From Sphingobacteriaceae bacterium (GTDB taxonomy: Bacteria; Bacteroidota; Bacteroidia; Sphingobacteriales; Sphingobacteriaceae), in NCBI GenBank assembly GCA_947479815.1, contig CANKAT010000032.1, positions 1 through 33,227 on the forward strand: a stretch of 33,227 bases of DNA, written 5' to 3'. Position 1 is the first letter of the stretch; each line of letters starts with the position of its first letter. The notes beneath the pieces are model-generated. The model saw only the letters and a program-made list of their open reading frames with translations, had not been told where the DNA came from and did not search any database. Made by a program: the position numbers and the translations under genes. Of this stretch, positions 1 through 16,944 are shown one piece after another.

Positions 1-596
1 AATCACCAACTTGGTACAGTATAAACGATAGCTATTCTGAAGGTCTAGATACTAAATATGGTAAAACAAAAGTAGATTCTCAATTTTTGAATAAAGATAA
101 GACTTATGATTTTGTTTACAATTTAAGAACACCTCTAAAAATAAGTGGTGGAATTGGAATATTTATAAATAACCAGGGATTTATATCGGCCGATGTTGAC
201 TATGTAGATTATTCCACTATAAACTTTTCTGCAGCACCCAATTACGACGATCCAGAAGTAATAATAGATAATAACAGAGAAGTTTTAAATAATTATAAAA
301 GCGCTATAAACTATCGTCTAGGTGCAGAATATAAGATTAATAAACTAATGCTTAGAGCAGGATATGGTGTTCAGGGCAATCCGTATAAAGCACTGGATAA
401 TAACAAGTTTAAAATTAGCACCTATAGTGGCGGTATGGGATATCGTTTTAACAACATTTATGTAGATATGACCTATCAGCAAATGGTTTATCATTCTGAT
501 ATTAAACCATACACTTTGAACCCAGGTAATAGTCCAATGGCCTCAATTAATAATACAAGAAACAATGTTTTTCTTACCATTGGGAGACGGTTTTAA
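1..596 (+). CDS. OmpP1/FadL-family outer-membrane transport protein, 3' part only
   Basis: The reading frame is open from base 3 with no start in view, so the gene begins upstream of the window; about 197 C-terminal residues are visible. The piece starts with SPTWYSINDSY and alternates short polar turns with amphipathic strands (for example GGMGYRFNNIYVDMTYQQMVY), as expected of the last strands of a beta barrel. It ends in an aromatic residue (LTIGRRF), the usual outer-membrane insertion signal recognised by the BAM complex. The SPTWYxIND segment resembles Bacteroidota OmpP1/FadL/TodX proteins, which move hydrophobic compounds across the outer membrane. The N-terminal hatch and signal peptide are outside the window, so the substrate cannot be judged. 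I see no clear terminator after it before the next gene. Confidence 0.75.
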   Translation, partial: SPTWYSINDSYSEGLDTKYGKTKVDSQFLNKDKTYDFVYNLRTPLKISGGIGIFINNQGFISADVDYVDYSTINFSAAPNYDDPEVIIDNNREVLNNYKSAINYRLGAEYKINKLMLRAGYGVQGNPYKALDNNKFKISTYSGGMGYRFNNIYVDMTYQQMVYHSDIKPYTLNPGNSPMASINNTRNNVFLTIGRRF

Positions 597-12214: not shown

Positions 12215-13795
12215 TTATTGCTTTTTCAACTTTCTAGGTCGATCATCGATCATCCCATTAAATTTATTTTTTTCTAGGATTTGATTTAATACTTTTTCTT
12301 CAGAAACAGACATTCCAGAAAGACTGCTTAATGTATTACCCTTTGAGCTCACTGAGAAAAATCCTTTTTCAGAATAGGCTAAAGCTGCAGCTAAAAGCGC
12401 TTCTTTCTCATCACCAAAATCTTTAGTTACATCATCAGCAAGTGTTTTATCAACTATCAAGCCTTCATAAAATCCACCATAATTCTTTTGATTCCTAGTT
12501 TCAAACTGGGGTACATAAAGATCCAAATTGTCAATATTGATTGCAAAAAAACCAACGGGTTTACCATAGGTTTGACGACCAATTAATTTTACATCATTAG
12601 GCATGACACCCTTCAAGTTATTAATGACTAATTCACTCGCAGATGCCGTTCCACTAAGTACTAAGAAATAAATTTTTTTAAATTCTGCAGCACCTTCTTT
12701 AGCAAAATTTTCAATATTTCCTGCATCAACAGTAGGTTTATAATTAATATCAGCGTAGGTTGCCCATTTGCCATTTGCACCAGAGGTAAATGTCTGAAGT
12801 TTACCATTAGCATCTAATAAAGGTTGATTGACTAATATTTTGGCAAGCCCATCTTGCATAGTTTTTGTCCAATAGGTTGTGTACATTACTTGACCATTTA
12901 CTGAAGCAGGCGCTAAAAGATTAGTAAACACATCCGAAGTAGCTACAGAACCTCCACCATTGTAGCGTAAATCAACAATTAATTCAGAAGCACCATCAGT
13001 TTGAAATTTTCCGATTGCAGCTCTAAGACCATCTCTTGAATTGGTGGTAAAACTATTGTAAGCTATATATCCAACTTTTTTACTACCAACAGTAAATGTC
13101 TTGGTTGCAAATATTGGATTGTTAGCATAAGTTGCTCTCGCAATGGTCACGTCTTGACTGCTGCCATCAGGTTTTTTGACCGTCATAGTCACTGTTGTTG
13201 CACTTCCGAATACAGCTGTAGAAACAAAAGACACATTCGCTGACAAAGAAGTACTTAGAGCAGATCCAGTTCTTCCGTTTATCGTTGTAATCTGATAGCC
13301 TCTTTTCAGCCCTACAGTAGCAGCAGGAGATCCAGGTGAGACATATTTAACTCGAAGATCTTCTGTTGGAGTAGCTGAATTTCCATCATCATCATTATAA
13401 AATACGGAGAAGCCAAAATCACCACTTACTCCACCAAGTGAGGTAGATACTCCACCATTATCAAGAAATGAATATTTATCTACAGGTTTATTTGTTCCAG
13501 GCAATTTAATTATTGCATCGAGAACAGCCTGATCTGAAGAATATGACCTGGGTTTAAATATTTCATAGGTAGGCATACCATCATTCCAGAAATAAGTATC
13601 CCTGGCATAAAGAAAAATTGAATCCTTTGTTAACTCAGCTCTCGTAGGAGGCGTCACGATCACTGGTGGAGTTATCGTTGTTGTGGTTGTATTGGTTTGT
13701 TTAGGCTCTTTCTTGCAAGCAGAAGCCAGAATTAAAACACTAAAGGTGAAAATAACCGGTTTTATTAACGAACTCAAATTGATTTTATATGACAT
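12215..13795 (-). CDS. S41-family (C-terminal processing) peptidase, lipoprotein
   Basis: 526 residues. A lipoprotein signal ends in LILASAC with the lipidated cysteine at 27, followed by a Thr/Pro-rich tether (30-51). An N-terminal helical segment precedes a PDZ domain (about 120-210, with VSPGSPAATVGLKRGYQITTINGR) and the S41 core: VDLRYNGGG near 275-283, the Ser-rich nucleophile motif SGTASASELV (381-390), and the probable catalytic lysine K412 in YGKPVG. The enzyme would cleave proteins in the periplasm or at the membrane; the target is unknown. The start ATG at 13795 gives a good signal peptide. The upstream HAD-like gene ends 59 bases before it. Confidence 0.88.
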   Translation of the reverse strand: MSYKINLSSLIKPVIFTFSVLILASACKKEPKQTNTTTTTITPPVIVTPPTRAELTKDSIFLYARDTYFWNDGMPTYEIFKPRSYSSDQAVLDAIIKLPGTNKPVDKYSFLDNGGVSTSLGGVSGDFGFSVFYNDDDGNSATPTEDLRVKYVSPGSPAATVGLKRGYQITTINGRTGSALSTSLSANVSFVSTAVFGSATTVTMTVKKPDGSSQDVTIARATYANNPIFATKTFTVGSKKVGYIAYNSFTTNSRDGLRAAIGKFQTDGASELIVDLRYNGGGSVATSDVFTNLLAPASVNGQVMYTTYWTKTMQDGLAKILVNQPLLDANGKLQTFTSGANGKWATYADINYKPTVDAGNIENFAKEGAAEFKKIYFLVLSGTASASELVINNLKGVMPNDVKLIGRQTYGKPVGFFAINIDNLDLYVPQFETRNQKNYGGFYEGLIVDKTLADDVTKDFGDEKEALLAAALAYSEKGFFSVSSKGNTLSSLSGMSVSEEKVLNQILEKNKFNGMIDDRPRKLKKQ

Positions 13796-13854: not shown

Positions 13855-14469
13855 TTACATAAATTCACTGACATTTAGGTAATCCACTCCACTTGAACTA
13901 GCAAAATCTTTATCAGTTAAGGTATTGCCAATGACCAAAAGATCCTTCCTCAATAGATTGTGTTCTTTCAATATATACGACAATACGTCGGACTCTGGTT
14001 TCAGATTTATTTCCTGAGCATAATAAACCTTTATATATTTTTCAAGACCGTTCCATTCTGTTTGCATGATTTTATTCATCTGCACTTCGGGTTTAGCATT
14101 TGTAATAATGATTATTTCTTTTCTATCAATAACTATTTCCTGTAATAGAGTCAGCATATTTGAATACAATAATAGCTTCAAAGGTAATCTGGCGGTAAAA
14201 TAAAGCCGGTCAAAATTATCTCTGTATTTTTCATTAATAGCAAATACTTCTTTCGCCCTATCAAAAATACCATCATCACCATGGTGCAAATATGCTTTTT
14301 TGAAAAATTCAATCAGTTCAAGCGCAGGAGGAAAAGTCTCTGTAAATTCTATAAAATTGGAAAATAGATAGTATACCTGTAATAGATAATCTCTTTCAGG
14401 ATAAAGAACATCATCCAATTCAAAAATAAAAGCCTTCTTTCTGTGATCTAGATCAATATATTTAAGCAT
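13855..14469 (-). CDS. HAD-superfamily-like protein with substituted catalytic residues
   Basis: 204 residues from the ATG at 14469, one base after the stop of the upstream gene; a TTG at 14490 would overlap that gene and is less likely. The fold pattern is HAD (Cof/pyrimidine-nucleotidase-like cap): motif I appears as FIFELDDVLYPERD, motif II as IIITNAKPE, motif III lysine as NLKPESDVL, motif IV as LVIGNTLTDKDFA. The usual nucleophile Asp of DxDx(T/V) is Glu17, and the GD of motif IV is GN. Both metal-site changes argue against normal phosphatase activity. It is tightly coupled to the pre-ATP-grasp-like gene, so the two products probably act together. Function not known. Confidence 0.7.
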   Translation of the reverse strand: MLKYIDLDHRKKAFIFELDDVLYPERDYLLQVYYLFSNFIEFTETFPPALELIEFFKKAYLHHGDDGIFDRAKEVFAINEKYRDNFDRLYFTARLPLKLLLYSNMLTLLQEIVIDRKEIIIITNAKPEVQMNKIMQTEWNGLEKYIKVYYAQEINLKPESDVLSYILKEHNLLRKDLLVIGNTLTDKDFASSSGVDYLNVSEFM

Positions 14470-14470
14470 A

Positions 14471-14950
14471 TCAAACAATAAAAGAACCAAATATTAGCTG
14501 ATTATATCTTAATTCCCAATAAAAAACACCATTCTCTTCATTGAAAAGCTGCATACTCTCTTTGTCAATATTCCCTGCACATACTTTTCCATCAATTAAG
14601 ACAAATAAATTTGTTGAAAGAAATGGCGAATCTTTTAATCTTGTTTCTATCCATTTTATGGAAGGAATAATAAGTTTAATTTCAAATTCTTCAAAAAGCT
14701 GGCGGGATTTTGAAAATTCAACAATTTCATCAGGCAATAGTGGGTAAATTTCAACTATTTGATGATCAAGACATATTTTTAATACTTCATGAATAAAACT
14801 TGAAGAATTGCTAGAGGGAATCTTTAAAAATCTTTTTCCGGCCAAAACAGGAATATCCATATCAGAGCCAAAACATATATCCTCAGTATTGAGAATACGT
14901 GAAAGTTGAAAAGCTGCTGAATTAGTTGCAGCGGTGATCAATACAGACAT
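14471..14950 (-). CDS. Stand-alone pre-ATP-grasp-like (Rossmann-type) protein
   Basis: 159 residues. The N-terminal half (VLITAATNSAAFQLSRILN, FGSDMDIPVLAG, FIHEVLKICLDHQIVEIYPLLPDEIVEFSKSRQLFEEFEIKLIIPS) has the order of strands and helices of the pre-ATP-grasp domain that precedes the catalytic core in CarB/PylC-like ligases. The ATP-grasp core itself is absent: the protein ends about 50 residues later with no lysine/acidic ATP site. It sits one base after the LolD-like gene and one base before the HAD-like gene, so all three are likely cotranscribed. I do not recognise a named family; the fold call is inference from pattern. Confidence 0.6.
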   Translation of the reverse strand: MSVLITAATNSAAFQLSRILNTEDICFGSDMDIPVLAGKRFLKIPSSNSSSFIHEVLKICLDHQIVEIYPLLPDEIVEFSKSRQLFEEFEIKLIIPSIKWIETRLKDSPFLSTNLFVLIDGKVCAGNIDKESMQLFNEENGVFYWELRYNQLIFGSFIV

Positions 14951-14951
14951 T

Positions 14952-15608
14952 TTAATAATTAATTATTTGTCCATCTTTCATAAGAACCTTTCTATCTGCC
15001 AGATTAGCAAGATTTTCATTATGAGTAACAATCACAAAGGTTTGGTTTAGAGTATCACGTAGGTTGACAAACAAATGATGCAAATTTTCTGCATTATTTG
15101 AATCCAAATTTCCGGATGGTTCATCAGCTAATATTATTGCGGGGTTATTCACCATAGCCCTTGCTACTGCCACACGTTGTTGTTCCCCACCCGACAATTC
15201 ACTGGGTTTATGATTCGCACGATCTGAGAGACCAAGTAGGTCTAATAATTCAAATGCCTTATTTTCTGCATCTTTTTTACTTTTACCAGCTATAAAGGCC
15301 GGTATACATATGTTTTCTAAGGAAGTAAATTCAGGAAGTAAGTGATGAAATTGAAAAATGAATCCAATTTGCTCATTCCTGAATGCACTCAATTTTTTTG
15401 TTGATAGTGTATGAACATCCACATTGTTCAATCTGACTATTCCATGGTCAGGATGATCAAGAGTGCCAATAATATGAAGTAGAGTGCTTTTTCCTGCACC
15501 TGAAGCTCCAATTATCGTAATAATCTCACCTGTTTTAACATCAAGATCAACCCCTTTCAGGATTTGTAAATTACCGTATGATTTTTTAATTCCTCTTGCC
15601 TGAAGCAT
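14952..15608 (-). CDS. ABC transporter ATP-binding protein, LolD-like
   Basis: 218 residues from the ATG at 15608; the frame stays open for 45 further codons upstream, but that stretch has no family resemblance. Walker [10 protein letters not shown] is at 34-42, Q-loop Q86, signature LSGGEQQ at 138-144, Walker B IILADEP near 158-164 and the switch histidine in VTHNE. The [15 protein letters not shown] pattern is typical of LolD/MacB ATPases, which power lipoprotein release from the inner membrane or similar mechanotransmission. No permease (LolC/E) is adjacent, so the partner is encoded elsewhere. It is divergent from sucC. Confidence 0.85.
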
Positions 15609-15747: not shown

Positions 15748-16944
15748 ATGAATATTCACGAATATCAAGGAAAAGCAATATTAAAAAGTTTTGGCGTCAG
15801 AGTTCAAGAAGGCATTGTTGCCGATACTGCTGAGCAAGCTGTTGAGGCAGCTAAAAAGCTAAAAGTAGATTATAATTCAGACTGGGTAGTTATCAAAGCT
15901 CAGATACATGCGGGCGGGCGTGGAAAAGGTGGTGGTGTTAAGCTAGCAAAAAATCTGGAAGAAGTTAGAGAAAAAGCAGGTCATATCATCGGAATGCAAT
16001 TAATTACACCACAAACCGGACCAGAAGGTAAGTTAGTTAGCAAAGTTTTGGTTGCACAGGATGTTTACTACCCTGGCGAAAGTGAAACTAAAGAATTTTA
16101 TGTGAGCGTTTTACTCGACAGATCCAAAGGCCGTAACATCATCATGTATTCTACAGAAGGTGGAATGGATATTGAAGAAGTTGCAGAACACACCCCTCAT
16201 TTAATTTTTAAAGAAGAAATAGATCCAAAAGTTGGCCTTCAGGGCTTTCAGGCTCGTAAAATAGCCTTTAATCTGGGATTGAGTGGTGATGCATTCAAAG
16301 ACATGACCAAATTCATTGCTTCTTTGTATAAAGCATATGAAGCTACTGATTCATCTATGTTTGAGATTAACCCAGTATTGAAAACATCTGATAATAAAAT
16401 TCTTGCGGTTGATGCCAAAGTAAACCTAGATGATAACGGACTTTTCCGCCATCCTGATTTTGCTGCAATGCGTGATACATCAGAAGAAGATCCAACAGAA
16501 GTAGAAGCAAGCAAATCAAATCTGAACTATGTTAAGCTTGACGGAAACGTAGGTTGTATGGTGAATGGAGCTGGTCTTGCAATGGCTACAATGGATATTA
16601 TCAAACTTGCCGGTGGTGAGCCTGCAAATTTCTTAGATGTAGGTGGAACTGCAAATGCTGAAACAGTCAAAGCTGGATTTAATATTATCCTTTCTGATCC
16701 AAATGTAAAAGCTATTTTAATCAATATATTTGGAGGAATTGTACGCTGCGATCGTGTTGCTCAGGGAGTTATTGATGCATATAAAGAGATTGGAAATATT
16801 CCAGTTCCGATTATTGTACGTCTTCAGGGCACTAATGCTGTAGAAGCAAAAAAGTTAATTGATGAATCGGGACTAAAGGTTTACTCTGCTATTCTTCTTA
16901 AAGAAGCTGCTGCATTAGTAACTAAGGTTCTTGAAACTAAATAA
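15748..16944 (+). CDS. sucC: Succinyl-CoA synthetase (ADP-forming), beta subunit
   Basis: 398 residues, normal length. With SucD it makes ATP (or GTP) from succinyl-CoA in the TCA cycle. The N-terminal ATP-grasp domain shows [37 protein letters not shown] and MFEINP; the C-terminal CoA-ligase-type domain shows [26 protein letters not shown] and [17 protein letters not shown]. sucD is not in the window, so the two subunits are in separate loci here. The gene is followed by a strong hairpin. Its succinyl-CoA pool links it to SCOT encoded at 3013-4491. Confidence 0.95.

Follow-up and report, generated by a model that had tools for sequence, protein, structure and literature searches.

ATP-grasp ligases of the ATPgrasp_Ter (PF15632)/PRK12767-like type, with 2pn1 as the solved representative, possess a pre-ATP-grasp domain with a Gly-rich N-terminal motif and an ATP-grasp core bearing an ATP-binding Lys and an EINPR motif. 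Phosphatases of HAD subfamily IA with a C1 cap (HDHD4/NANP and YjjG type) display an Asp nucleophile, a motif II Thr, a motif III Lys and a motif IV acid, and PIG-L/BshB-type deacetylases are encoded in operons for the modification of glycans or thiol-sugars. Enzyme folds can outlive their chemistry: Tim50 is a HAD-fold pseudoenzyme, in which the fold was kept for binding after catalysis had been lost. To our knowledge, pseudoenzymes are usually encountered as such finished products. We describe here a locus of the Sphingobacteriaceae for which the evidence gives good support to the conversion of an operon of enzymes into a pair of apparent pseudoenzymes in one place, with the intermediates still alive today. 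It lies on a stretch of 33,227 nucleotides of a Sphingobacteriaceae bacterium, hereafter called the window.

The window codes on its reverse strand for a LolD-type ABC ATPase, a small protein that we term PAG and a HAD-fold protein (Table 1). A preliminary description had placed each of the outer two genes one base from PAG, and the ORF coordinates agree; the HAD ORF is also listed in a longer, overlapping form that starts with TTG. The same description had ascribed to PAG the pre-ATP-grasp fold of CarB/PylC-type ligases. The PRK12767 "carbamoyl phosphate synthase-like" profiles match PAG with E-values of 9e-6 to 2e-3, all far under their cut-offs, and Pfam PylC-like_N reaches 18.8 bits, under its curated cut-off of 27. 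Structure prediction bears out the assignment: the AlphaFold model (66-row alignment; mean pLDDT 93.1) is matched best, among PDB entries, by the ATP-grasp CPSase-like protein 2pn1 (Foldseek E 3.6e-6), which aligns with 155 of the 159 residues over the chain range 4..272 (VIA Z 12.2), only 1.2 ahead of a Rossmann-fold dehydrogenase (Z 11.0, 98 residues aligned). The further proposal that the chain stops before any ATP-grasp core needs amendment. The core is indeed absent from PAG, and with it the ATP-binding Lys, the Gly-rich loop and the EINPR (ExNxR-type) metal motif, but the tail appears to match the far end of that core. Judging from the aligned range, of which the structural alignment output gives the first and last residues only and so limits the mapping of the tail, the middle of the core is missing and residues ~106-159 fall on the distal end of the ATP-grasp domain. 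We rejected the tail as a remnant recognisable by sequence: with 47 tails, hhalign gave E-values of 0.088 against the long degenerate forms, 0.23 against the ligases and 0.38 against both, none of them significant, and the tail mapping is therefore a structural one.

Table 1. Features of the locus in the window (positions within the window). Frequencies in the last column are for 129 derived PAGs and 20 ligase rows; the ligase rows contain three genomes twice (G070, G080, G024), leaving 17 distinct. Alignments A4 and A5 have 66 rows each, picked from larger sets.
Feature	Position	Strand	Basis or remark
S41 peptidase gene, conserved downstream neighbour	12215..13795	-	ORF and locus comparison
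HAD-fold protein, 204 aa, incomplete catalytic set	13855..14469	-	ATG at 14469
HAD N182 codon, at first motif IV acid position (GN for GD)	13924..13926	-	alignment, letters read
HAD E17 codon, at Asp nucleophile position (motif I, FELDD)	14419..14421	-	alignment, letters read
PAG, ligase remnant	14471..14950	-	159 aa, ATG start; pre-ATP-grasp domain and short C-terminal tail
PAG residues 106-159, two beta hairpins; possibly far end of ATP-grasp domain	14474..14635	-	model and dN/dS
PAG residues 1-105, pre-ATP-grasp (Rossmann-like) domain	14636..14950	-	model and dN/dS
PAG L85 to E88 codons	14687..14698	-	L85 and E88 each in 100% of derived PAGs, each in 1/20 ligase rows
PAG D62 codon	14765..14767	-	89% of 129 derived PAGs, 0/20 ligase rows
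PAG H54 codon	14789..14791	-	95% of 129 derived PAGs, 0/20 ligase rows
LolD-type ABC ATPase gene, upstream of PAG	14952..15608	-	TIGR02211 277 bits, cut-off 307.75 (below)
sucC-like gene, divergent neighbour	15748..16944	+	close to lolD in three of the basal loci as well

The neighbouring HAD protein scores above the cut-off of Pfam HAD_2 (33.8 versus 23.8 bits), and its AlphaFold model (pLDDT 96.4) shows a capped HAD fold with HDHD4 and NANP among the structural matches; its profile (A2) recovered no solved relatives by sequence at an E-value of 0.001. Its active site is substituted, as the preliminary description had said. Glu stands at the nucleophile and Asn at the first motif IV acid, and the motif II Thr and the motif III Lys are retained.

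The origin of this arrangement emerges from seven genomes of the family, belonging to three genera (g11, g23 and g24; these and other genus codes, such as g5, are working labels, and one related record carries a name, L031, a Pedobacter schmidteae MAG). In these basal loci the PAG match is a full ATP-grasp ligase of ~350 aa with FKP..NGSRG, SEYLPG and EINPR, preceded by a PIG-L deacetylase gene and followed by a HAD with an Asp nucleophile. The basal ligase scores 121.3 bits against PF15632 (ATPgrasp_Ter; cut-off 29.1), 46.1 bits against PylC-like_N and 130 bits against PRK12767, below the cut-off of 218, and its single solved relative by sequence is 2pn1. The basal deacetylase reaches 60.3 bits against PF02585 (cut-off 28.2) and 63.6 bits against TIGR04001, below the cut-off of 182.5. 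In all four of the seven trio genomes inspected for it (G070, G023, G024, G033), a distance of ~1.5 kb separates lolD from the PIG-L gene; sucC lies 2.6-4.8 kb from that gene in three of the four, the contig of the fourth ending earlier. Relocation of the pair to lolD, an idea that arose from the short flanks of the trio loci showing no lolD, was rejected on this proximity. As lolD flanks the intact trio too, the degenerate pair is most simply the same locus minus the intervening genes, and we are confident that PAG is what remains, in place, of a complete ATP-grasp ligase. The orientation of lolD matches that of the trio in G024, the state also seen in derived loci. Both lolD and the gene next to it face away from the trio in G070 and G023, so that this arrangement needs an inversion besides a deletion, and a simple deletion fits G024 only. 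The gene in question codes for a ~490-aa protein, which stands between lolD and PIG-L in all three basal loci read fully (L223:5307-6779, L224:5082-6551, L235:2994-4475). Its N-terminal part looks hydrophobic, and the two copies tested (L223 and L235) match no Pfam family at an E-value of 0.01.

Outside the family, 12 loci of the same class code for a full-length ligase of this type, with PIG-L adjoining in eight and a HAD within the ~1.5 kb flanks in one (G358); on this count, we rejected the idea that a HAD belongs to all operons of the kind. A thirteenth locus, G381, which was found through its HAD, combines ligase and HAD and has no PIG-L. Within the family, G004 has both states: its lolD is followed by the degenerate pair, and elsewhere it carries an intact PIG-L/ligase/HAD trio (L209, G004:C1:375497-376525 and flanks), which is flanked by genes that by eye resemble those of polysaccharide export. 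In G045, which also has the degenerate pair, one ORF (L215 1483-2760) reads as a fusion, with an ATP-grasp ligase followed by a HAD-like C-terminal part. In G019, the g20 genome with PAG and no HAD, a PIG-L-like gene, reminiscent of BshB by eye, stands directly upstream of lolD (L237 8287-9012).

Forms of graded length lie between the full ligase and PAG. The open frames of the remnant, counted from stop to stop, span 98-302 codons in the lolD-linked genera. The longest of these forms (287-290 aa), from g5, can be aligned over much of the ligase, and in that alignment the ATP-binding Lys, the Gly loop and EINPR are all missing; those of g3 and g19 are shorter than the g5 forms, and the other lolD-linked genera have 98-200 codons. 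The derived HADs display a comparable loss, as none of the 130 retains the full catalytic set. At position 17, Glu is found in 117, Gly in six, Asp in four, and Ala, Cys and Thr in one each; the first motif IV acid is Asp or Glu in eight, the motif II Thr is present in 118 and the motif III Lys in 78. The Asp nucleophile is found in 9/9 basal and outgroup rows, one of which (G043) is truncated, with motifs III and IV missing. The derived HADs share Q31, Y33, P96, N132, K133, W139 and E153 with all seven basal catalytic HADs and have changed mainly at the catalytic positions. Reading the alignments in this way, we are confident that catalytic residues were lost in both PAG and the HAD. The four derived HADs with Asp at position 17 (G058, G074, G178, G103; loci L045, L148, L174, L194) have the motif IV acid in no case, and their Asp may be a retention or a reversal.

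In a tree of 60 of the 139 HAD rows, which includes every basal and outgroup row and otherwise at most four rows from any genus, and whose bootstrap had not fully settled, a branch with support 80/100 and one change at the nucleophile sets the derived HADs apart, so that a single nucleophile switch is the simplest account. The outgroup comprises two long-branch rows that do not group together, with G358 placed beside a g23 row. As the tree thus leaves the root unplaced, the direction of change is taken from the intact motifs; the direction and order of the losses given below would follow from these motifs and parsimony.

Both remnants are under purifying selection in the vicinity of the window, that is, they are maintained. 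In three close pairs among the genomes G000, G134 and G149, dN/dS, computed on open frames that include a few codons outside genes or in overlaps, is 0.15-0.16 for the N domain of PAG; the HAD gives 0.12-0.13 and LolD 0.10-0.15. For the PAG tail in the same genomes it is 0.44-0.57, indicating weak constraint. Five pairs involving the ~100-codon forms give 0.06-0.23 for the N domain, with dS above 1 in three of them. The two proteins thus combine an enzyme fold, lost catalytic residues and purifying selection, the features by which a pseudoenzyme pair is recognised.

The maintained N domain is also a changed one. Its Gly-rich motif is largely gone from positions 7, 9-12 and 15, where the ligase rows have an invariant G, G, A, P, G and G, and it bears the new residues H54, D62, L85 and E88 (Table 1). 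This gain of near-invariant residues argues for a new binding role over plain decay. All four residues are already present in the four g5 forms whose core is still close to its former length, an indication that the new role preceded the discarding of the core. G019, which has no HAD, keeps all four, and G005, likewise without a HAD, keeps H54, L85 and E88 and not D62; hence, the signature is not strictly HAD-dependent.

The occurrence of PAG in the family goes beyond chance. Profile searches found it in 188/201 genomes of the family and in 178/186 near-complete ones, leaving eight of the latter without a match; the HAD was found in 149 of 151 genomes sampled from the order, all of them assigned to the same family, and, at an E-value of 1e-12, in 12/247 genomes drawn from the class, 10 of the 12 again belonging to the family. 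The preliminary description had made its proposal depend on conserved adjacency, and this was found: in 125 of 141 loci, which come from genomes already matching PAG or HAD rather than from a random draw and are counted once per genome with short flanks, LolD, PAG and HAD follow one another on one strand. The rest comprise the seven PIG-L trio loci, four with LolD and PAG and no HAD in the stretch, three centred on a HAD with no PAG in reach, and two with LolD and HAD and no PAG. Two of the four lacking a HAD in the stretch have it elsewhere (G014, G025), and the other two, G005 and G019, have none. G012 and G022 possess the HAD without PAG, and G067, G124, G007 and G032 have neither, with G067 and G032 retaining lolD followed by an unrelated gene. 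Among genomes without PAG and HAD, a search at an E-value of 1e-60 found no match to the window LolD in G124, G129 and G007, where LolD may be divergent or lost; one of these is a single-contig, 99% complete genome. The HAD is 9-31 kb distant in G014, G101, G116 and G025. A rearrangement in some g15 genomes places it 9-12 kb from LolD-PAG in L239 (G014:C13), G101:C1 and G116:C28, and in G014 an SMC-like gene and others separate it from PAG. With start codons guessed by script, the median gap is 2 bases between LolD and PAG (129 loci) and 1 base between PAG and HAD (132 loci, the seven trio loci included), with overlaps in 22 and 55 loci, respectively. Of the 125 ordered loci, short as these stretches are, 100 show the S41 peptidase gene and 91 show sucC. 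As the whole neighbourhood is stable, the adjacency alone says little on interaction and is partly passive.

We posit the following history. The ancestor would have had, near lolD, an operon for a PIG-L-type deacetylase, an ATP-grasp ligase and a HAD phosphatase, which, from the chemistry of their families, probably exposed the amine of an amino-sugar, joined a carboxylate to it and removed a phosphate; the ancestral ligase was thus probably sugar-modifying. Along a single branch of the family, the locus would have been stripped of the deacetylase gene and the adjoining ~490-aa gene, the ligase of its ATP- and metal-binding residues and the HAD of its nucleophile and metal acid, with both remnants ending up directly behind lolD. 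The ligase core would have eroded further, to genus-specific lengths, as the N domain gained H54, D62, L85 and E88. PAG and the HAD would now be made in step with LolD and presumably act by binding. The HAD may still bind the phosphorylated ligand of its ancestor, or else a partner, with no turnover; in PAG, the H54/D62/E88 region of the pre-ATP-grasp domain would be the site that contacts a partner or a small ligand, making the protein a cytoplasmic sensor or scaffold. We regard it as fairly probable that the ligase core was lost in place beside a HAD that lost its catalytic residues and that the remnants are now binding proteins. Counting against this account is the dispensability of the genes, seen in the eight near-complete genomes without PAG and in the four genomes with neither gene.

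This last point leads to slow neutral decay, by which the operon became jobless and its leftovers are being shed, with the HAD keeping a minor role and PAG departing. The shrinkage of PAG frames from ~300 to ~100 codons, the relaxed tail, and the loss of PAG with the HAD kept in two genomes and of both in four are what it would predict, but the constraint on the N domain, which holds near the window and in the pairs with ~100-codon forms, the presence of PAG in nearly the whole family and its near-invariant new signature speak against it, and we deem it unlikely, albeit the strongest of the rivals. In another rival account, the two proteins would depend on each other in an obligate complex, with a phosphorylated sugar or a nucleotide-like compound as the ligand sensed and the neighbouring ABC ATPase LolD as the target. 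The tight gaps, the overlaps and the conserved order would fit a complex, but each gene is found alone, the HAD lies far off in four genomes, the co-variation of distances is not in excess, and flanking genes are conserved in place too. Specifically, over 125 loci the partial correlation of PAG and HAD distances with LolD controlled is r 0.21, below that of either gene with LolD (0.44 for each), and we rejected co-evolution as support for binding between the two. This obligate complex is accordingly improbable, and the earlier idea that the products bind each other has no support so far. Of the binding or sensing pair put forward in the preliminary description, the fold, the lost core, the HAD substitutions and the adjacency have been borne out, and the origin from a decayed operon had been overlooked. 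An HAD that is still enzymatic, with a Glu nucleophile or other chemistry and PAG as its substrate-delivery subunit, would agree with the regular capped fold and the motif II Thr and motif III Lys of most derived members; it is a very improbable account given Gly, Ala, Cys or Thr at position 17 in nine genomes and the rarity of a motif IV acid. The preferred reading, in-place loss with retention for binding, can be extended to a two-protein non-catalytic sensor that reports the level of a sugar-phosphate or envelope precursor to the co-transcribed lipoprotein export ATPase LolD, with H54/D62/E88 as the partner site; we offer this extension as a speculation that has a small chance of being right.

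Directly behind a LolD-type gene there are thus two conserved genes to which no function is assigned, and of which the titles and abstract openings in the open-licence literature that was searched give no description. One gene survives at this locus in forms that range, within a single family, from intact through half-worn and hollowed-out to a lone domain, beside a partner whose own active site is gone. This makes it testable what selection acts on after catalysis, and whether new residues arise before or after the core is lost. Set against the ATPgrasp_Ter/PRK12767-like ligases, PAG has the pre-ATP-grasp fold in common with them but is without the core, the Gly-rich N-terminal motif, the ATP-binding Lys and EINPR. 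The window HAD shares with the subfamily IA phosphatases of the HDHD4/NANP and YjjG type the capped fold, the motif II Thr and the motif III Lys, and departs from them in the change of the nucleophile from Asp to Glu and of the motif IV acid to Asn. The intact trio begins with a PIG-L protein like the PIG-L/BshB-type operons, unlike which the derived locus has neither a PIG-L gene nor a complete active site. Tim50 likewise offers a parallel for a HAD fold surviving its catalysis, from which the window HAD differs in lineage, partner and cell compartment.
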